Shown one piece after another: positions 7,732-15,843 of a stretch of DNA of 64,000 nucleotides. This DNA is from Geothrix sp. PMB-07. Its GTDB lineage: Bacteria > Acidobacteriota > Holophagae > Holophagales > Holophagaceae. The notes below the pieces were generated by a model that ran no database searches, was not told the DNA's origin, and saw only the letters and a list, made by a program, of their open reading frames with translations. How positions within the stretch are numbered: position 1 is the first letter of the stretch; each line of letters begins with the position of its first letter. The stretch lies in assembly GCF_030758935.1 (NCBI RefSeq), contig NZ_CP132333.1, positions 2,294,992-2,358,991 on the forward strand, given 5' to 3'. The position numbers and the translations under genes are program-made.

Positions 7732-9069
7732 GTGCACAGGTGTTACTTCATCTCCATCCATGACCTGATCGACCGGGCGGACCTGCCCGGATGGGTGGCC
7801 TCCCTGGCCAGGAACAAGGAGATGGAAGCGGATACCCAGCAGGCCGTGTCGGCCATCCTGGCTGACGTGCGCCTCCGGGGGTTGGCAGCGGTCCGGGATT
7901 GGACCGGGCGCCTGGATGGGGTCCAGCTGGAGCCCTCGGCCCTGCGGTTCCCCGTGTCGACCCTGGAAGCTGCCCGCCTGCACCTGGACCAGACTCAGCC
8001 CGACCTCATGGCCGCCCTTCGGGAACTCATTGCCAACGTGCGCCGCTTCGCCGAAGGCCAGCGCCGCAGCCTGCTGGATCTGGAGCTGCCCCTGCCCGGC
8101 GGCGGCACGGTGGGCGAGCGCTGGTGCCCCTTGCAGACGGCCGGGGTCTACATCCCCGGCGGACGGGCCTTCTATCCTTCCACCTTGGCCATGACCGTCA
8201 TCCCTGCCCAGGTGAGTGGCGTGGCACGCATCGTCGGCGTCACGCCGCCCAAACCTCAGCCCACCCTGCCTGGCGCCTGGGGCGTGGATCCCCTGGTGCT
8301 GGCCTGCGCCGCGGAACTGGGCCTCACCGAGCTGTATCCGTTCGGCGGCGCCCAGGCCCTCGGCTGGCTGGCCCACGGCGAGCCCGCGGTGGATCTCATC
8401 GCCGGGCCCGGCAACCGCTTTGTGGCCGAAGCCAAGCGCCAGCTCATCGGCACCTGCGGGATCGATTCTCTGGCTGGGCCCACGGAGCTGCTGGTGATCG
8501 CCGATGGCAGCGCCGACCCCACCTGGCTGGCCGAGGATCTCATGGCCCAGGCCGAGCACGATCCCGATGCCGCCGCCGTCCTGGTGAGCGAAGACCGGGC
8601 CCTGCTCGAAGCCGTGGCCGCAGAGCTGCAAACCCGCACCGACGCTTCACCCCGCCGAGCCATCCTCGAACAGAGCCTGGCCAACCATGGGCGCCTCGTT
8701 TGCGCCAACCGCGAACTGACCATCGCCCTCGCCCAAACCTGGGCCCCGGAGCACCTGGAGCTTTGCGTTGCAGATGCGGACGCCTGGCTGCCCCACCTCA
8801 CCACCGCAGGCGCCCTGTTCATCGGCAGTGCCAGCGCCGAGGCCTTCGGCGACTATGGCGCGGGCCCCAACCACGTGCTGCCCACGGATCGCAGCGCCCG
8901 CTACGCCAGCCCCCTGGGCGTGGCCACCTTCCTGAAGCGACAGAGCCTCCTCCGCCTGGCACCCGCGGACGCCGCGGCCATGGCCCCCTGGGTGAAACGC
9001 CTGGCCGAAGCCGAAGGCCTCACCCACCACGGCCGCAGCGCCGCCCTTCGCGGCCACCATCATCTCTAG
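7732..9069 (+). CDS. hisD: Histidinol dehydrogenase
   Basis: HisD carries out the last two steps of histidine synthesis, oxidising histidinol to histidine with NAD and zinc. Family motifs are present: GIYxPGG-type GVYIPGGRAFYPS, PFGGAQALGW, GPGNRFVAEAKR, GPTELLVIAD, AQAEHDPDAAAVLV and GAGPNHVLPT. The length of 445 residues is typical. The GTG at 7732 is used; the only in-frame ATG near it (7825) would remove conserved N-terminal sequence. It opens a nine-gene his operon; the 84-base leader has a TGCCC-TT-GGGCA palindrome (7655-7666) but no His-rich leader peptide that I can see. Confidence 0.95.
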   Translation: MHRCYFISIHDLIDRADLPGWVASLARNKEMEADTQQAVSAILADVRLRGLAAVRDWTGRLDGVQLEPSALRFPVSTLEAARLHLDQTQPDLMAALRELIANVRRFAEGQRRSLLDLELPLPGGGTVGERWCPLQTAGVYIPGGRAFYPSTLAMTVIPAQVSGVARIVGVTPPKPQPTLPGAWGVDPLVLACAAELGLTELYPFGGAQALGWLAHGEPAVDLIAGPGNRFVAEAKRQLIGTCGIDSLAGPTELLVIADGSADPTWLAEDLMAQAEHDPDAAAVLVSEDRALLEAVAAELQTRTDASPRRAILEQSLANHGRLVCANRELTIALAQTWAPEHLELCVADADAWLPHLTTAGALFIGSASAEAFGDYGAGPNHVLPTDRSARYASPLGVATFLKRQSLLRLAPADAAAMAPWVKRLAEAEGLTHHGRSAALRGHHHL

Positions 9070-9137: not shown

Positions 9138-10916
9138 ATGTCGAGTCCATCCATGTCGCTGCTTCGCCCTGACCTGTCCGACCTGCCCGCCTACCAGCGG
9201 CCTCCCGAGCCCTCCGGCGGCGTACGCCTGCACATGAACGAACCGGCCCAGGACTGGCCCCGGGAAGCCAAGGAGGCTCTGCTGGCGCGGCTCCGCGACC
9301 TGCCCTTCCACCAGTATCCCGAGCGTCAGGCCGAGCTCACGGAAAGGCTGGGCCGACGCCTGGGGGTACCCGAAGGTGGCCTGCTGCTGGGTCCGTCTTC
9401 TGGGGCGCTGCTGGATCTGGTGGCCATGGCCGGGCTGAGCGCGGGAGACACCGTGGCCATCCCCGAGCCCGGCTTCAGCCTCTACCCCATGTTGGTGCGG
9501 CGCCACGGCGGGCGCGTGCGCCTGGTGCCCCAGGGCACGGGCTTTCCCCTGGAGCCCTGGTTCGCAGCCCTGGATTGCCGACAGATCTGGCTGACGCTGC
9601 CGAACAATCCCACCGGCGCCTGGCTTTCGCCCGAAGAACTGGAGCCCCTGCTGGCGGCCATCGCCGCGCGGCCCAACCCACCCCTGGTGGTGCTGGACGA
9701 GGCCTACGCGGAGTTCGCCCCCGCCACCCACCGCCTGGCCGTGGACCGCTATCCCAACCTGCTCCTGCTGCGCACCTTCAGCAAGGCCCTCGCCTCCGCC
9801 GCCTGGCGCATCGGCTATCTGGTGGGAGATCCCACGCTGGTGGCCAAACTCGCCACGCTGCAGCTGCCCTATTCCCTGCCTTCGGCCAGCCTTGAAGCGC
9901 TGGATGTGGCTTTGGATTTCGCGGCGGATTTCGAGGCGGCCGTGCGCGCCGTGCCCGAGCGCCGCGACCGTTTCGCCACGGCCCTGACCAGCTATCAGGC
10001 TGCACCCAGCGCGGGCAACTTCCTGCACATCTCACCGGATCCCTCCTCAGCCCTTGAAGCCGCGGGCCTGAAGGCCCGCCGCCTGCCCGGCACCGACGCG
10101 GCGCGTGTCACCGTGGGCACCGAAGCTGACACCGCCCATGCGGCTTCGGCCCTGGGCGCCACCCTGCCCCCGCCAGCGCCCCGGCCTCGACGCAGGCTGC
10201 TGGTGCTGGACATCGACGGCGTGCTCATCGACGCGGGCCGCAGCTTCATGGATTCCGTGGCTCGGGCCCTGGCGGAGCTGCGCCCGGCGCTGCCCTGGTC
10301 CGACGACACCTTCCAGGCCTTCAAGCGGCTAGGCGGCTTCAACAATGATTTCCGACTCACGGCAGGGGCCCTGGCCCTGACGGAACGACATGGGGATGTG
10401 GATCTCCGGCCCCTGCTGGAAAGCGCCAGAGGCCGCGGCTTTCCCGAGCTCGAGCCGCGCATGCAGGCGCTCGAGCCCATCGCCCAGGGGGTGGTGCAGA
10501 AGCATTACGCGGACACCATCCACAGTGAGCGGCCCACGGTGACGCTGACGGAGCTCCGCAGCACCGGCTGGGATCTGGCCGTGCTGACGGGCCGTCCTCC
10601 CGACGAGCTGGAATTGGCCTGGCAGGTGCTCGGCTTCAAGTTGCCCGCGGTCTGCGACGCCGCTCCCCACCTGCGCAAACCGGAACCGGCGGGCCTGCTG
10701 CAACTGGCCGATGCCTTCCGCGCCGAGGATATCGTTTTCGCCGGCGACACCATCGATGACGCCCGGTGCCTCCGAGCTGCTGCGGCGCTGCGTCCCGAAC
10801 TGCGGTGGCGCTTCGCGGCCATCGGTCCCGACCGCGCCCACTTCGCCGCGCCCCAGGACCTTTCCTTCGCCGGGCTTCGCGAATGCCTGCCCGTGTTGAC
10901 TCAGGAGCTGCCATGA
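9138..10916 (+). CDS. hisC: Histidinol-phosphate aminotransferase fused to HAD phosphatase domain
   Basis: This 592-residue frame encodes two enzymes. Residues about 1-345 are HisC, a fold-type I PLP aminotransferase converting imidazole acetol phosphate to histidinol phosphate; NNPTGAW, VVLDEAYAEF and TFSKALASAAWRIGY with the PLP lysine at Lys216 are visible. After a Pro/Arg linker, residues about 352-592 form a HAD hydrolase: motif I LVLDIDGVLID (Asp358, Asp360), motif II VLTGRPP, motif III Lys in LRKPEP and motif IV FAGDTIDDA. Since no other histidinol-phosphatase is in the operon, the HAD part is a plausible HolPase (inference). The start is ATG 9138 or 9153. Its stop overlaps hisB (ATGA). 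Confidence 0.9.
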   Translation: MSSPSMSLLRPDLSDLPAYQRPPEPSGGVRLHMNEPAQDWPREAKEALLARLRDLPFHQYPERQAELTERLGRRLGVPEGGLLLGPSSGALLDLVAMAGLSAGDTVAIPEPGFSLYPMLVRRHGGRVRLVPQGTGFPLEPWFAALDCRQIWLTLPNNPTGAWLSPEELEPLLAAIAARPNPPLVVLDEAYAEFAPATHRLAVDRYPNLLLLRTFSKALASAAWRIGYLVGDPTLVAKLATLQLPYSLPSASLEALDVALDFAADFEAAVRAVPERRDRFATALTSYQAAPSAGNFLHISPDPSSALEAAGLKARRLPGTDAARVTVGTEADTAHAASALGATLPPPAPRPRRRLLVLDIDGVLIDAGRSFMDSVARALAELRPALPWSDDTFQAFKRLGGFNNDFRLTAGALALTERHGDVDLRPLLESARGRGFPELEPRMQALEPIAQGVVQKHYADTIHSERPTVTLTELRSTGWDLAVLTGRPPDELELAWQVLGFKLPAVCDAAPHLRKPEPAGLLQLADAFRAEDIVFAGDTIDDARCLRAAAALRPELRWRFAAIGPDRAHFAAPQDLSFAGLRECLPVLTQELP

Positions 10917-11509
10917 GGACCGCCACCATTCAGCGCGCCACCGCGGAAACCGAGGTGAAGCTCAGCCTAGGTCTTGATGGGGGCCCCGATGGGGGCGAAG
11001 CCCGCATTCACACGGGCCTGGGCTACTTCGATCACATGCTCATGCAATTGGCCCGGCACGGCGGCTTCGCGCTCGACGTAGAGGCCACGGGCGATCTGCC
11101 CGTGGACAGCCACCACCTGGTGGAGGATGTGGGCCTCTGCCTGGGCGACGCGCTGAAGCAGGCCCTGGGCGAACGTCGCGGCCTGGTGCGCTTCGCCCAC
11201 GCCTACGTGCCGCTGGACGAGGCCCTCGCCCGGGTGGTGGTGGATCTCTCCGGCCGTCCCTGGTGCGAATTCCACGCCGACCTTCCCCCCATCATTCTCG
11301 GCGATGGGTTCCAGGTGGAGATGGTCCGGGAATTCTTCGTGGCCCTGGCCATGCGCGGTGGCCTCGCCATCCACGCCGATCTGCTGCGCGGCGTGAACAC
11401 CCATCACAAGGTCGAGGCCCTGTTCAAGGCCCTGGCCAAGGCCCTGCGCCAGGCCACGCGCATCGAAGGCAGCGAGCTGCCCTCCACCAAGGGAACCCTC
11501 TCCGCATGA
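10913..11509 (+). CDS. hisB: Imidazoleglycerol-phosphate dehydratase
   Basis: HisB dehydrates imidazole glycerol phosphate to imidazole acetol phosphate using manganese. Two internally repeated metal-binding halves are visible: GLGYFDHMLMQLARHGGF with DSHHLVEDVGLCLG, and LRGVNTHHKVEALFKALAKAL. The 198-residue length is the monofunctional form; there is no N-terminal phosphatase domain as in E. coli HisB. The ATG overlaps the hisC stop and its own stop overlaps the hisH ATG. Confidence 0.96.
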   Translation: MRTATIQRATAETEVKLSLGLDGGPDGGEARIHTGLGYFDHMLMQLARHGGFALDVEATGDLPVDSHHLVEDVGLCLGDALKQALGERRGLVRFAHAYVPLDEALARVVVDLSGRPWCEFHADLPPIILGDGFQVEMVREFFVALAMRGGLAIHADLLRGVNTHHKVEALFKALAKALRQATRIEGSELPSTKGTLSA

Positions 11510-12150
11510 GCGAGACTGACGTCATCACCCTGATCGACTACGACGCCGGCAACCTGGCCTCACTGGAGGGCGCCCTGGATCGCCTGGGCCTGCCCTACCA
11601 GCGGGCCGCCACACCGGATGGCATTGCGCCCGGCGGCCCCATCATCCTGCCGGGCGTGGGCCACTTTGAAGCGGCGCAGCGCTCCCTCCGCGACCGCGGC
11701 TGGTGGCGCCTGCTGCCCACCCTCGTGGCCGAGGGCCGGCCCCTGCTGGGCATCTGCCTGGGCCTTCAACTGCTGGCCGAAGGCAGCGAAGAAGCGCCCC
11801 GCGCCTCGGGGCTCGGCCTCATTCCAGGCCTCGTGCGCCGCCTGGGCCCCGGCGTGAAGGTGCCCCACATGGGCTGGAGCCAGGTGAGCGAACACCACAT
11901 GCATCCCGCGCTGCCGGATCTCGACCGTGCCTGGCTCTACTTCGTCCACAGCTACGCGCTGGAACCCACCGTGGAAACAATCTGTATCGCCGAGCACGGG
12001 CGGCCCTTCGCGGCCATCCAGGCCCGGGGGCTGGTGCTGGGCTTCCAGGCGCACCCGGAGAAATCGGGCGAGGCGGGCCTGTCCATGCTGAAGTCCACGC
12101 TCGCCTGGATGGGCGTGGCGGCGCCCGCACCGGAGGTACCGTGCAACTGA
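11506..12150 (+). CDS. hisH: Imidazole glycerol phosphate synthase, glutaminase subunit
   Basis: HisH is the class I glutamine amidotransferase that feeds ammonia to HisF. The nucleophile elbow GICLGLQLL contains the catalytic Cys, and the His/Glu pair lies in FQAHPEKSGEAG. The N-terminal LIDYDAGNLASLEGAL and ILPGVGHF are typical. The product has 214 residues. ATG 11506 overlaps the hisB stop (ATGA); the hisA GTG start lies inside its last codons. Confidence 0.96.
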   Translation: MSETDVITLIDYDAGNLASLEGALDRLGLPYQRAATPDGIAPGGPIILPGVGHFEAAQRSLRDRGWWRLLPTLVAEGRPLLGICLGLQLLAEGSEEAPRASGLGLIPGLVRRLGPGVKVPHMGWSQVSEHHMHPALPDLDRAWLYFVHSYALEPTVETICIAEHGRPFAAIQARGLVLGFQAHPEKSGEAGLSMLKSTLAWMGVAAPAPEVPCN

Positions 12151-12854
12151 TCCCCAGCCTCGACCTCATGCAGGGCCGCCTCGTGCGGCTGCGCCACGGC
12201 GATCCCAGCCAGGCGACCTTCTACGATCTCGATCCCGAAGCCTGGATCGCCAGCCTCGTCGAGGCTGGGGCCCGCCGCATCCACCTGGTGGATCTGGATG
12301 GCGCCTTCGGCCGCCCGCGCCAAGGCCGCTTCACGGAGTTCCCAGCGCGCTTTCCCCAGGTCCGCTTCCAGGTGGGCGGTGGGTTGCGCGACCGCATGGC
12401 CATTGAGGAGGTGCTGGCCCTGGGTTTCGATGCCGTGGTGGGCACCCTCGCCGTGGAGCAGCCTTCCGCCCTGCGCGGACTGCCCGGCAGCCACCTCATC
12501 GCCGCCCTGGATTTGAAGGGGGATCGCATCGTCACCCGCGGCTGGCAGGCCTCCAGCGAATGCGCGTCGACCGATGTCTTCGAGGCCCTGCTCAGTCTGG
12601 GTTTCCACCGCGCCCTGGTCACCGACGTCAGCCGTGACGGAACGCTGGAAGGCCCTGGGCTCGAGGCCGCCGCCTGGGTGGCCCGCGAGGGTTTCCAGGT
12701 GCAGGCCTCTGGCGGCGTGAAGGCTCTGGCGGATCTCAAGCCCCTGGCCCTCCTCCCCGGCGTGGTGGGCGCCATCAGCGGCAAGGCCCTCATGGAAGGC
12801 TTCATCCCCCTGGATGATCCGCGCACGCGCGCGGCGCTGGAAGGAGTGTCCTGA
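12141..12854 (+). CDS. hisA: ProFAR isomerase (HisA)
   Basis: HisA is the (beta/alpha)8-barrel Amadori isomerase acting on ProFAR. The first strand is IPSLDLMQGRLVRL with the catalytic Asp; the second catalytic Asp lies in LVTDVSRDGTLEGPG; phosphate-binding glycines appear in FQVGGGLRD and VQASGGVKA. I chose GTG 12141 because GGAGG (12132-12136) precedes it at correct spacing and it puts the first strand at the N-terminus. The product has 237 residues. It overlaps the hisH 3' end by 10 bases and its TGA overlaps the hisF ATG by one base. Confidence 0.94.
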   Translation: MQLIPSLDLMQGRLVRLRHGDPSQATFYDLDPEAWIASLVEAGARRIHLVDLDGAFGRPRQGRFTEFPARFPQVRFQVGGGLRDRMAIEEVLALGFDAVVGTLAVEQPSALRGLPGSHLIAALDLKGDRIVTRGWQASSECASTDVFEALLSLGFHRALVTDVSRDGTLEGPGLEAAAWVAREGFQVQASGGVKALADLKPLALLPGVVGAISGKALMEGFIPLDDPRTRAALEGVS

Positions 12855-13606
12855 TGCCTGCCAAGCGCATCATCCCCTGCCTGGATGTGAAGCAGGGCCG
12901 CGTCGTGAAGGGCGTGCAGTTCAAGGATCTCCGCGATCTGGGCAACCCTGTGCAGTTGGCCCGCCGCTACGATGCCGAGGGCGCGGATGAACTGGTGTTC
13001 CTGGACATCGCCGCCTCCATCGAGAACCGCGGCACCCGCGAAGCCTGGGTGCGCGAGGTGGCCCACGAACTCAGCATTCCCTTCACGGTGGGTGGCGGCG
13101 TCTCCCACGTGGAGGATGCCCGCAGTCTGCTGCGTGCCGGTGCCGACAAGGTGGCCGTGAACACCGCGGCCGCGCTGCGCCCCGCCCTGGTGCGCGAACT
13201 GGCCGAGGCCTTCGGCCGCCAGTGCGTGGTGGCGGCGGTGGATGTGAAGCGCGATGCGGCTCTGGGCTGGCGGGTCTACCTGAAGGGCGGCACAGAGCCC
13301 ACGGAGCGCTCGGCCCAGGATTGGCTGTGGGAGCTGAGCGAGCTCGGTGCCGGGGAGATTTTGCTTACGTCCATGGATCGCGACGGCACGGGCGAGGGCT
13401 TCGACATCCCGCTGCTCGACCTCGCTTCCAAGCTGCCCATCCCCCTCATCGCTTCCGGCGGCGCGGGCCGGGAGATCCACTTCCTGGAAGCCCTGGAGCA
13501 CGGCGCCGATGCGGTGCTGGCCGCCACCCTCTTCCATGAAGGCATCCTGTCCATCTCCCAGCTCAAGGCCTACCTGGCCCACAACGACCTTTCCGTACGG
13601 ATCTGA
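12854..13606 (+). CDS. hisF: Imidazole glycerol phosphate synthase, cyclase subunit
   Basis: HisF uses ammonia from HisH to close the imidazole ring, giving IGP and AICAR. The barrel begins RIIPCLDVKQGRVVKGV with the catalytic Asp; the second Asp lies in LTSMDRDGTGEGFD; phosphate loops include FTVGGGVSHVEDA and IASGGAGREIHF. The 250-residue length is normal. It is translationally coupled to hisA (TGATG) and separated from hisIE by one base. Confidence 0.97.
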   Translation: MPAKRIIPCLDVKQGRVVKGVQFKDLRDLGNPVQLARRYDAEGADELVFLDIAASIENRGTREAWVREVAHELSIPFTVGGGVSHVEDARSLLRAGADKVAVNTAAALRPALVRELAEAFGRQCVVAAVDVKRDAALGWRVYLKGGTEPTERSAQDWLWELSELGAGEILLTSMDRDGTGEGFDIPLLDLASKLPIPLIASGGAGREIHFLEALEHGADAVLAATLFHEGILSISQLKAYLAHNDLSVRI

Positions 13607-13607
13607 C

Positions 13608-14231
13608 ATGGATATCAACGCCCTCCGCTTCGGCCCCGACGGCCTCATCCCCGGCATCGTGCAGGACCGCGCCGGCGCGGTGCGCATGATGGCCTGGCTC
13701 AACCGAGAGTCTTTGCAGATCACGCTGGACACCGGCTACGTCACCTTCTGGAGCCGCTCGCGCCAGGCCCTGTGGACCAAGGGCGAAACCTCCGGCCACC
13801 GCCTGAAGCTCGTCCAGATCCGGCCGGACTGCGACGCGGATGCGCTGCTCATCCTGGCCGACGCCGAGGGCCCCAGCTGCCATCGGGGGACCTTGACCTG
13901 CTTCGATGGTGAGCAGATGCCTGCCACCCTGCCCTGGCTGGATCAGCTGGAGACACTGCTGCAATCCCGCAAAGCACAGGCCGATCTGGCGGGCAGCTAC
14001 ACCCAGAAACTCTTCGCCCAGGGCGTGGATCGCATCGCCAAGAAAGTGGTGGAGGAGGCAGGCGAAGTGATCCTGGCCGCCAAGAACGAAGATCGCGAGG
14101 CCTTCCTCGGCGAAGCGGCGGACCTCCTCTTTCACCTGGAGCTGCTGCTCATCGAGCGCGGCGCCTGTCTGCAGGAGGTGGTGGAGGTGCTGCACAGCCG
14201 CCATGCGGAACGCTCGGGAGGAACCGCCTGA
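13608..14231 (+). CDS. hisI: Bifunctional PR-AMP cyclohydrolase / PR-ATP pyrophosphatase
   Basis: This is the fused HisIE enzyme catalysing steps 2 and 3 of histidine synthesis. HisI occupies about residues 1-115: MMAWLNRESLQ, TGYVTFWSRSRQALWTKGETSG and the metal-binding Cys/His set in DCDADALLI and GPSCHRGTLTCF. HisE occupies about residues 118-205: AGSYTQKLF, RIAKKVVEEAGEVILAAK and EAADLLFHLELLL. The product has 207 residues. The stop overlaps the hisZ start by one base. Confidence 0.96.
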   Translation: MDINALRFGPDGLIPGIVQDRAGAVRMMAWLNRESLQITLDTGYVTFWSRSRQALWTKGETSGHRLKLVQIRPDCDADALLILADAEGPSCHRGTLTCFDGEQMPATLPWLDQLETLLQSRKAQADLAGSYTQKLFAQGVDRIAKKVVEEAGEVILAAKNEDREAFLGEAADLLFHLELLLIERGACLQEVVEVLHSRHAERSGGTA

Positions 14232-15199
14232 TGCCCGTCCGCACGCCCCACTTCCCCGACCTGCTCTTCGACTCTGCGGCCCGGCTGCGACGCTGGGAGG
14301 GCGCCCTCATGGGCCTGCTGGAAACCCACGGCTACCGCGAGCTGCACCCTTCCCTGGTGCTGCGCGAAGCCATCCCGGAGGGCTCTCTGCGCTTTTTCGA
14401 CGGGGACGACCTGGTGGCCCTGCGCTGGGATTTCACTGTGTCCCTGGCGGGCCTGCTGGCCCGGCGCTTCACCGAACCACCCCCGCGCGTGGCCTATGCC
14501 GGTGCTGTCTTCCGAAGGCCCGTGCAGCCCTGGGAGGCCGTGGAGCGCTTCGAGGTGGGCTGCGAGCGCATCCAGGCTGAAGGCGAGAGCACGGGCGAAG
14601 CCGACGTGGAACTGGCTCGCCTGCTCATGGCCATTCCCGGCGTACTGGGGCTGAAGAGCGCCATCCTTCACCTGGGCCACGCAGCGCTGGTGCGCCGTCC
14701 GCTGGAGGCGGAAGGGCTTGCGCCGGATCTGGCCGAGGCTGTGGTGGCGGCCCTTTCCCGGCGCGCGCCGCACCGGGTGCGCGAAGCCTTGGCAGGCCAT
14801 CCCGCCGCCGCGCGGCTCTCGGCCCACGCCGAGGCCCTGCTCGCCGAACTGGATGGGCCGCGCACGCTGGAAGCCCTCAAAGCTAGCCCCTATGCGGGTC
14901 TGCTGCAGGAGGAGCGGGAGCACATGGAGCGCGCCCTGCAATCCCTGCTGCCCATCCTGCCGCCCAATCTGGAGCTGCGGGTGGATCTCGCCGACGTGGC
15001 GGGCCTGGGCTTCTACACGGGCCCCACCCTGCGCCTGTGGGCCCCGGGCGCGCAGCAGGAACTGGCCGCCGGTGGCCGCTATGATCGCCTCTTTCCTGGC
15101 CTGGGGCGCCCCTGGCAGGCGGCGGGCTTCTGCGTGCGGCTGTCACGGCTGCTGGACCTGGCCACCACCCGCCCTGACCTTTTTGAGCCACTCCCATGA
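14231..15199 (+). CDS. hisZ: ATP phosphoribosyltransferase regulatory subunit
   Basis: HisZ is a histidyl-tRNA-synthetase paralogue without aminoacylation activity; it assembles with short HisG and confers histidine feedback control. Class II synthetase motifs are recognisable: the motif-2-like ALRWDFTVSLAGLLARRF, VAYAGAVFRRP, and GLGFYTGPTLRLW with GGRYDRLF near the C-terminus. There is no anticodon-binding domain (322 residues against about 420 in HisRS), which separates it from hisS. It lies directly before the short hisG, overlapping it by 4 bases, as expected for the pair. Confidence 0.92.
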   Translation: MPVRTPHFPDLLFDSAARLRRWEGALMGLLETHGYRELHPSLVLREAIPEGSLRFFDGDDLVALRWDFTVSLAGLLARRFTEPPPRVAYAGAVFRRPVQPWEAVERFEVGCERIQAEGESTGEADVELARLLMAIPGVLGLKSAILHLGHAALVRRPLEAEGLAPDLAEAVVAALSRRAPHRVREALAGHPAAARLSAHAEALLAELDGPRTLEALKASPYAGLLQEEREHMERALQSLLPILPPNLELRVDLADVAGLGFYTGPTLRLWAPGAQQELAAGGRYDRLFPGLGRPWQAAGFCVRLSRLLDLATTRPDLFEPLP

Positions 15200-15843
15200 C
15201 GCCAGCCTCTATCCTCATCGCCTTCCCTAAGGGCCGCCTCGGCGACGAGCTGGTACCCAAGCTGGCGGGCACCCCGCTCGCCCTGGACGCCGCCGCCCTC
15301 AAGTCGCGGGTGCTGCGCATCCCCACCGCCACGCCCGGCGTGGCCGCCCTGCTCCTCAAGGGCACGGACCTGCCGCGCTACGTGGCCGCGGGCGTGGCGT
15401 CCCTGGGCATCGTGGGCTCCGACACCCTCGATGAATTGGACATGGACCTGCTGGAGCTGGCGGATCTGGGCTTCGGCGCCTGCCGCCTCTCCCTCTGCGC
15501 TCAGGAAGGCGTCACGCTGGAAGCCCTGCGCGCCAAGCCCCATCTGCGCCTGGCCACCAAGTTCCCCAAGGCCACTGAGGCCTGGCTCAGCCGCGAAGGC
15601 CTTACCGCCGAGCTGGTGCCCCTCAGCAGCAGCGCCGAGCTGGCGCCCCTGCTGGGTCTGGCCGACGCCATCGTGGATCTCGTGCAGACCGGCGGCACCC
15701 TCCGGGCCCATGGCCTGGTGGAGACGGCGGTGCTGGGACACTCCTCGGCCCGCCTCGTGGCGGCCCGCGGCGCCTACCTCAGCGAACCCAGCCGCATCCG
15801 GCCCCTGGCGGAACAGCTGCTGGTGGCGCTGCAATCCAGGTAG
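15196..15843 (+). CDS. hisG: ATP phosphoribosyltransferase, short form
   Basis: HisG starts the pathway by joining ATP and PRPP. The N-terminal LIAFPKGRL, the GIVGSDTLDE hinge, and the PRPP-binding AIVDLVQTGGTLRAHGL are characteristic. At 215 residues it lacks the C-terminal ACT-like regulatory domain of long HisG, so it should need HisZ, encoded just upstream and overlapping (ATGA). It is the last gene of the his operon; no strong terminator was seen after it. Having the committed-step enzyme at the operon end is unusual compared with enteric order. Confidence 0.95.
   Translation: MTPASILIAFPKGRLGDELVPKLAGTPLALDAAALKSRVLRIPTATPGVAALLLKGTDLPRYVAAGVASLGIVGSDTLDELDMDLLELADLGFGACRLSLCAQEGVTLEALRAKPHLRLATKFPKATEAWLSREGLTAELVPLSSSAELAPLLGLADAIVDLVQTGGTLRAHGLVETAVLGHSSARLVAARGAYLSEPSRIRPLAEQLLVALQSR

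Follow-up and report, generated by a model that had tools for sequence, protein, structure and literature searches.

Gene content of the histidine cluster and the aminotransferase half

The window, which is the whole stretch of 64,000 nucleotides of Geothrix sp. PMB-07 that was analysed here, carries a cluster of histidine biosynthesis genes in the order hisD-[hisC-HAD]-hisB-hisH-hisA-hisF-hisI-hisZ-hisG, all on the plus strand. The hisD gene (7732-9069), which encodes histidinol dehydrogenase, the enzyme that acts after the phosphatase, was recognised by PF00815 with 420 bits. It is followed by the hisC-HAD fusion gene (9138-10916), a single unbroken frame of 592 codons that runs from the ATG at 9138 to the TGA at 10914-10916 and encodes a protein of 592 aa; the ATG at 9153 (MSLLRPDL) is an alternative start with a better conservation than the one at 9138. 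The stop of the HAD half and the start of hisB share the ATGA at 10913-10916, and hisB (10913-11509) encodes only the dehydratase, with PF00475 as its sole domain. The remaining genes, hisH, hisA, hisF, hisI(E), hisZ and hisG, span positions 11488-15843 as open reading frames whose order is conserved in the relatives. Family profiles were run on hisD and hisB only; the identities of the other his genes were read from their sequences. Among the genes of this cluster (hisD, hisB, hisH, hisA, hisF, hisI, hisZ and hisG), no phosphatase gene other than the HAD half was found. This observation agrees with the initial annotation, in which the operon was described as having no HisN or PHP-type gene and a HisB that lacks the phosphatase domain.

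The first half of the fusion protein (aa 1-345; 9138-10172, plus strand) is a histidinol-phosphate aminotransferase, HisC, as was determined using TIGR01141, PF00155 and the PLP-site motifs. TIGR01141, the best model for this half, matched aa 10-339 with 181.6 bits (E 1.9e-53) and PF00155 matched aa 29-338; because the TIGR01141 score lies below the cut-off of 276.55, we regard the HisC of the fusion as divergent. All of the HisC motifs are present, i.e., YPER (60-63), NNPTG (156-160), DEAY (187-190), TFSK with K216, R224 and ARVTVG (322-327), and K216 is indeed the PLP lysine that had been named from the sequence. A frameshift or an assembly artefact was ruled out because the fusion is conserved in dozens of genomes, which include almost every genome of the genus and members of several further genera.

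The window's genome also encodes a second, canonical HisC that exceeds the TIGR01141 cut-off (C1:979592-980650) and lies outside the his cluster, and the fusion is therefore not the sole HisC of this genome. Taken together with the low score of the fused HisC, this could mean that both halves of the fusion protein act in a different pathway and that histidine is made by the canonical HisC and some other phosphatase. Such a division of labour is, in our opinion, very improbable, since no his genes were found in the 11 kb that were examined around the second HisC and the fusion gene sits within the his cluster, flanked by hisD and hisB, as it also does in the relatives.

The HAD half and its family

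The second half of the protein (aa 353-592; 10194-10913, plus strand) is a HAD-IA phosphatase domain, for which we propose the function of a histidinol-phosphate phosphatase (HolPase). Its assignment was based on PF00702, TIGR01548 and an AlphaFold2 model. Motif I, LDIDG (10206-10220), contains the nucleophile D358 and the acid/base D360, both of which are invariant in alignments A1 and A2. It is followed by the cap-domain signature GGFNNDF (aa 399-405; 10332-10352), which is common to the whole lineage, and, as determined by alignment and motif reading, by motif II, LTGR with T484 (10584-10595), motif III, RKPEP with K514 (10674-10688), and motif IV, GDTIDD (aa 536-541; 10743-10760), all on the plus strand. 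These are the catalytic residues that were picked out in the initial annotation, and its reading of one frame that encodes a complete HisC and a complete HAD domain was borne out by the open reading frame, by the TIGR01141, PF00155 and PF00702 matches and by the motifs. With four catalytic motifs and a HAD fold, the domain belongs to the HAD superfamily, and the cap between motifs I and II is that of subfamily IA, as had been suggested.

PF00702 matched aa 353-548 with 42.4 bits (cut-off 26.4). The top NCBIfam HAD model was TIGR01548 (HAD-SF-IA-hyp1), which aligned end to end with aa 355-546 (model positions 3-195 of 197) with 62.9 bits (E 2.9e-17) and with the NND signature present. Because its cut-off of 140.2 was not reached, we filed the HAD half as a probable HolPase of a TIGR01548-like HAD-IA lineage rather than as a formal member of the family. 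The same model was also the best match for eight other members of the lineage that were tested (62-228 bits), and the members that were found in the his operons of other lineages scored 62-130 bits. TIGR01548 carries the name ‘hypothetical equivalog’ and has no named substrate; the profile comparison thus did not assign the HAD half to an unrelated substrate class, which the initial annotation had regarded as a possible refutation. The HAD proteins of the his operons have in common D-x-D-G, T/S-G-R, K-P and G-D-xxx-D as well as a cap signature near G-G-x-N-N-D. Neither TIGR01261 nor TIGR01656 (HisB-N, HAD-IIIA) was found among the best 25 of the 64 models that matched the fusion protein.

The AlphaFold2 model of the HAD half had a mean pLDDT of 95.4. 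The nearest solved structure was 6iah according to the profile search (6.6e-32), Foldseek and VIA-align (Z 22.1, 217 residues, rmsd 2.9). This is the Tt82 phosphatase of Thermococcus thioreducens, which carries GSFGDDF at the matching place in the cap, but is a standalone protein with 26% identity to the HAD half of the window. A search for Tt82-like HAD proteins in 393 genomes of the phylum of Haloferax returned weak matches of 28-42 bits, none of which was near Tt82.

Other candidate phosphatases in the genome and the class

Whether the window's genome has another HolPase was judged using family profile searches, and no recognised HolPase of the HisN, PHP, HisB-N or SerB-like type was found, which answers the objection that a dedicated enzyme might be encoded elsewhere. 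No protein exceeded the HisN cut-off (TIGR02067, 275.15 bits); the best candidate, an IMPase, scored 165.7 bits as HisN compared to 203.4 bits as an inositol-1-monophosphatase and resembles SuhB. There was no match to PHP-type hisJ (TIGR01856) and none to the SerB-like HAD-IB HolPases (TIGR01490). A HAD-IIIA protein scored 156 bits against GmhB (cut-off 178) and 57.7 bits against HisB-N (cut-off 140); it is also accepted by the broad TIGR01656 domain model, and looks, based on these scores, like GmhB. Having scores below the HisB-N and HisN cut-offs, the GmhB-like and SuhB-like proteins were rejected as dedicated HolPases.

HAD-IA phosphatases are often promiscuous. With the GmhB-like and SuhB-like proteins in the genome, it could be argued that the HAD half has a broad specificity or a house-cleaning role, e.g., towards damaged or side-product phosphates of the pathway, and that histidinol phosphate is mainly hydrolysed by one of these two proteins. 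We consider this improbable. Apart from the low scores of both candidates, it is at odds with the retention of the HAD beside the his genes across phyla among the matches listed, also after the loss of HisC, and with the requirement of a probable Haloferax member of the family for histidine (PMC4300041), both of which are described below.

Similar observations were made at the level of the class, in which HisN exceeded its cut-off in none of the 93 genomes and PHP-type hisJ was found in one of the 93. Across 297 Acidobacteriota, the HAD of the family (≥50 bits) was present in 47 genomes and a HisN-like protein (E ≤1e-60) in 23, and no genome had both (hypergeometric P 0.016, uncorrected for kinship). 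The sole genome of family f2 without the HAD (G003) has a SerB-like HAD-IB protein over the cut-off. In family f3 of the same class (G084-G092), neither the lineage HAD nor a HisN or PHP protein over the cut-off was found, and the search of three of these genomes for HAD-IB yielded none over the cut-off either.

Distribution and evolutionary history of the fusion

The HAD was found in 77 of the 93 genomes of the window's class. Family f1 has the HAD fused to HisC within the his cluster in genus g1 as well as in g4, g5, g6, g8 and g10. In family f2, the fusion occurs in the order hisG..[hisC-HAD]-hisB-hisH-hisF..hisD, with a HAD that is only approximately 30% identical. Among the other Acidobacteriota, f5, f49, f66 and part of f42 encode the HAD separately, with hisC on one side and hisB on the other; in f6, f9 and f27, it is fused. 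One genome bin, G037, holds two different his clusters with the HAD (C6 and C92, with 79% and 59% identity to the window), which probably reflects contamination.

A contig scan, in which a six-row HAD alignment was the query and the loci were therefore sampled by the HAD sequence alone, yielded at least 42 loci, one of which was not a member of the family. In 27 of the 41 family loci among the matches listed, hisB lies directly downstream; these belong to Acidobacteriota, Nitrososphaerota, Bathyarchaeota, Myxococcota, Melainabacteria and Aminicenantes. The fused loci among the matches listed include four of Myxococcota, four of the Melainabacteria type and one of Aminicenantes. Overlapping matches at L099 in G328 and at the f5 loci were rejected as fusions, as the HisC match is in a different frame. 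In several relatives (some f42 genomes, Bacillota and cyanobacteria), the HAD lies away from the his genes, and hence the wider family may include enzymes with other substrates. The initial annotation assumed that a HAD lineage different from the known HolPases had been recruited and coupled to HisC at this locus. The fusion and the IA lineage stand, but this is not a local novelty, since numerous bacteria and archaea carry an unfused HAD gene that is flanked by hisC and hisB.

A phylogenetic tree of 90 HAD domains placed the f1 domains with the unfused genes of f5 and well apart from the fusions of f2, Myxococcota and Melainabacteria. A single clade of all of the fused rows was rejected by the AU test (p-AU 5e-9), as was one group of f1, including its standalone members, with the other fused rows (p-AU 0.0099, for a grouping that was chosen after the tree had been seen). 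A single origin of the HisC-HAD fusion was thus rejected, and the simplest reading of the tree is that the fusion arose independently at least twice.

Two sister genera, g3 (G057 and G058; L032 and L034) and g9 (G072, G073 and G077, and also G076 at one locus; L038, L041, L059 and L047), have kept only a remnant of HisC in frame with an intact HAD. The remnants comprise approximately 110-200 residues and have lost NNPTG, DEAY and SK...R with the PLP lysine; every HAD motif was kept. With these losses, the HisC half has decayed beyond catalysis in both g3 and g9, and the genomes that carry a decayed half have another HisC. The g9 remnant is still approximately 57-81% identical between species, and may for this reason keep a structural role.

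Besides the remnant, G072 of g9 has a complete his operon without the lineage HAD near the old locus (L116, G072:985000-1004000), and G070 of g7 carries a standalone HAD with a different his operon at a distance of 2 kb (L189). Both operons are complete, have a different gene order and a low identity and are situated approximately 2-20 kb from the remains of the old his locus. This suggests an operon replacement near the same place in both genomes; in g9 and g7, the old his operon appears to have been exchanged for one without a phosphatase, with the HAD being retained. The physical fusion to HisC could also be explained by the HAD half being a regulator or scaffold of HisC with no catalytic role. 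We find this scarcely credible, considering that its catalytic residues are all invariant, that the domain is standalone in many lineages and that it survives the decay of the HisC half.

Archaeal and cyanobacterial members

In Haloferax volcanii, two identical transposon mutants of the HAD hydrolase gene HVO_0431 need histidine, both of which represent one and the same insertion (PMC4300041), and HVO_0431 has also been named as the candidate for the sole gap in the histidine pathway of this species (PMC8305020). In Haloferax prahovense, a single TIGR01548 gene was found (223.7 bits), a short distance ahead of npdG, which corresponds to HVO_0433 of H. volcanii; hisE and pdxT follow on the far side of npdG. 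A TIGR01548 match over the cut-off was also obtained for the H. volcanii control genome. Because of the npdG synteny in the congener and this match, the Haloferax member of the lineage is very probably HVO_0431. The insertion coordinate that is given for HVO_0431 in Table 5 of PMC4300041 (1,198,248) lies 5 bases away from the one listed for the HVO_1312 (tyrosine) mutant and is inconsistent with the place of HVO_0431 in the numbering when HVO_0449 is at 399,114, which is possibly an error in the table.

In the phylum to which the Gastranaerophilales genome belongs, 53 of the 146 genomes that were sampled have a TIGR01548 protein over the cut-off, as does the Synechococcus elongatus control. 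The over-cut-off proteins at L163-L187 have WNNDW in the cap; in those that were read, SGAT replaces TGR at motif II and no his neighbours lie within 1.5 kb. The HisN step of S. elongatus is listed as a true gap (PMC7311316). The TIGR01548 protein is only a candidate for the HolPase of cyanobacteria such as S. elongatus.

Comparison with known systems, proposed function and significance

HAD-type HolPases are not new. E. coli HisB-N (TIGR01261) is, like the HAD of the window, a HAD HolPase that is fused to a histidine enzyme, but it belongs to subfamily IIIA and its partner is the dehydratase and not HisC. The SerB-like HAD-IB HolPases, which are known from genetics (PMC5764234), represent another subfamily (TIGR01490) and are standalone. 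Thermococcus onnurineus has a monofunctional HolPase that, according to the citing paper, is of the HAD superfamily as well (Lee et al. 2008, as cited in PMC5516325). The list of known HolPases in the initial annotation (HAD-IIIA, PHP and IMPase) therefore holds for these types but was incomplete, as it omitted the SerB-like enzymes and this archaeal one, at least as the latter is cited. HisN (IMPase-like) and HisJ/HisK (PHP) carry out the same reaction with unrelated folds. The closest relatives are the TIGR01548 proteins, including HVO_0431, which was already proposed for this step; they share the motif order and the NND cap signature with the HAD of the window, but the Haloferax and cyanobacterial members are standalone. 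What appears to be new is the fusion of HisC to a HolPase, the wide distribution of the family and the possible candidate for the cyanobacterial gap. In the open-licence literature, we found no HisC-phosphatase fusion, no mention of TON_0887 of T. onnurineus and no TIGR01548 in a histidine context. Should the enzyme of T. onnurineus be a member of this lineage, activity within the lineage has already been measured and the novelty lies in the fusion and the breadth.

Several observations point to the HAD half as the probable HolPase. It lies in the operon beside the steps before and after, with no other phosphatase in the cluster and no recognised HolPase found by the family searches in the genome. 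It is retained when the HisC half has decayed or the operon has been replaced. The adjacency of hisB in loci of several phyla, the repeated origin of the fusion and the non-overlap of the HAD-type and HisN-type genomes among the Acidobacteriota argue for the same function, as does the histidine requirement of the Haloferax mutants, with HVO_0431 being identified by synteny.

HisC enzymes use PLP, and HAD phosphatases act via a phospho-aspartate with Mg2+. The fusion protein would be bifunctional and catalyse two successive reactions of the histidine pathway. Its HisC half would convert imidazole-acetol phosphate into histidinol phosphate with PLP on K216, and its HAD-IA half would hydrolyse histidinol phosphate to histidinol via a phospho-aspartate on D358. 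D360 would serve as the acid/base that protonates the leaving histidinol, T484 and K514 would assist, GDTIDD would hold Mg2+, and HisD, encoded just upstream, would take the product. The alpha-helical cap with GGxNND, in which N402 and D404 are located, probably selects the amino-alcohol head of histidinol phosphate. This substrate and the role of the cap are inferred, and the intermediate may be channelled between the two sites. We are highly confident that the fusion joins a transaminase and a HAD-IA HolPase for consecutive steps, and that the phosphatase belongs to a family around TIGR01548 that is often encoded separately between hisC and hisB and was fused at least twice.

We also lean, with distinctly more reserve, towards the view that TIGR01548 and the wider GGxNND HAD-IA lineage are an ancient and widespread HolPase family of bacteria and archaea that is not named as such in the databases that were searched. 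It would fill this step in the window's class and in Thaumarchaeota, and would be a candidate in cyanobacteria; its fusion with HisC, on at least two occasions, would have given a bifunctional transaminase-phosphatase that may hand histidinol phosphate from one site to the other. Of the steps of amino acid synthesis in 148 prokaryotes, the one that was most often assigned with low confidence was the histidinol-phosphate phosphatase, in 28% of the organisms (PMC7311316). A family that can be recognised by its sequence, i.e., by the GGxNND of the cap and the position in the his operon, would close many such gaps at once and would correct predictions of auxotrophy. The fusion is a rare natural fusion of consecutive pathway enzymes that can be used to test substrate passing, and TIGR01548, a hypothetical family, gains a testable function.
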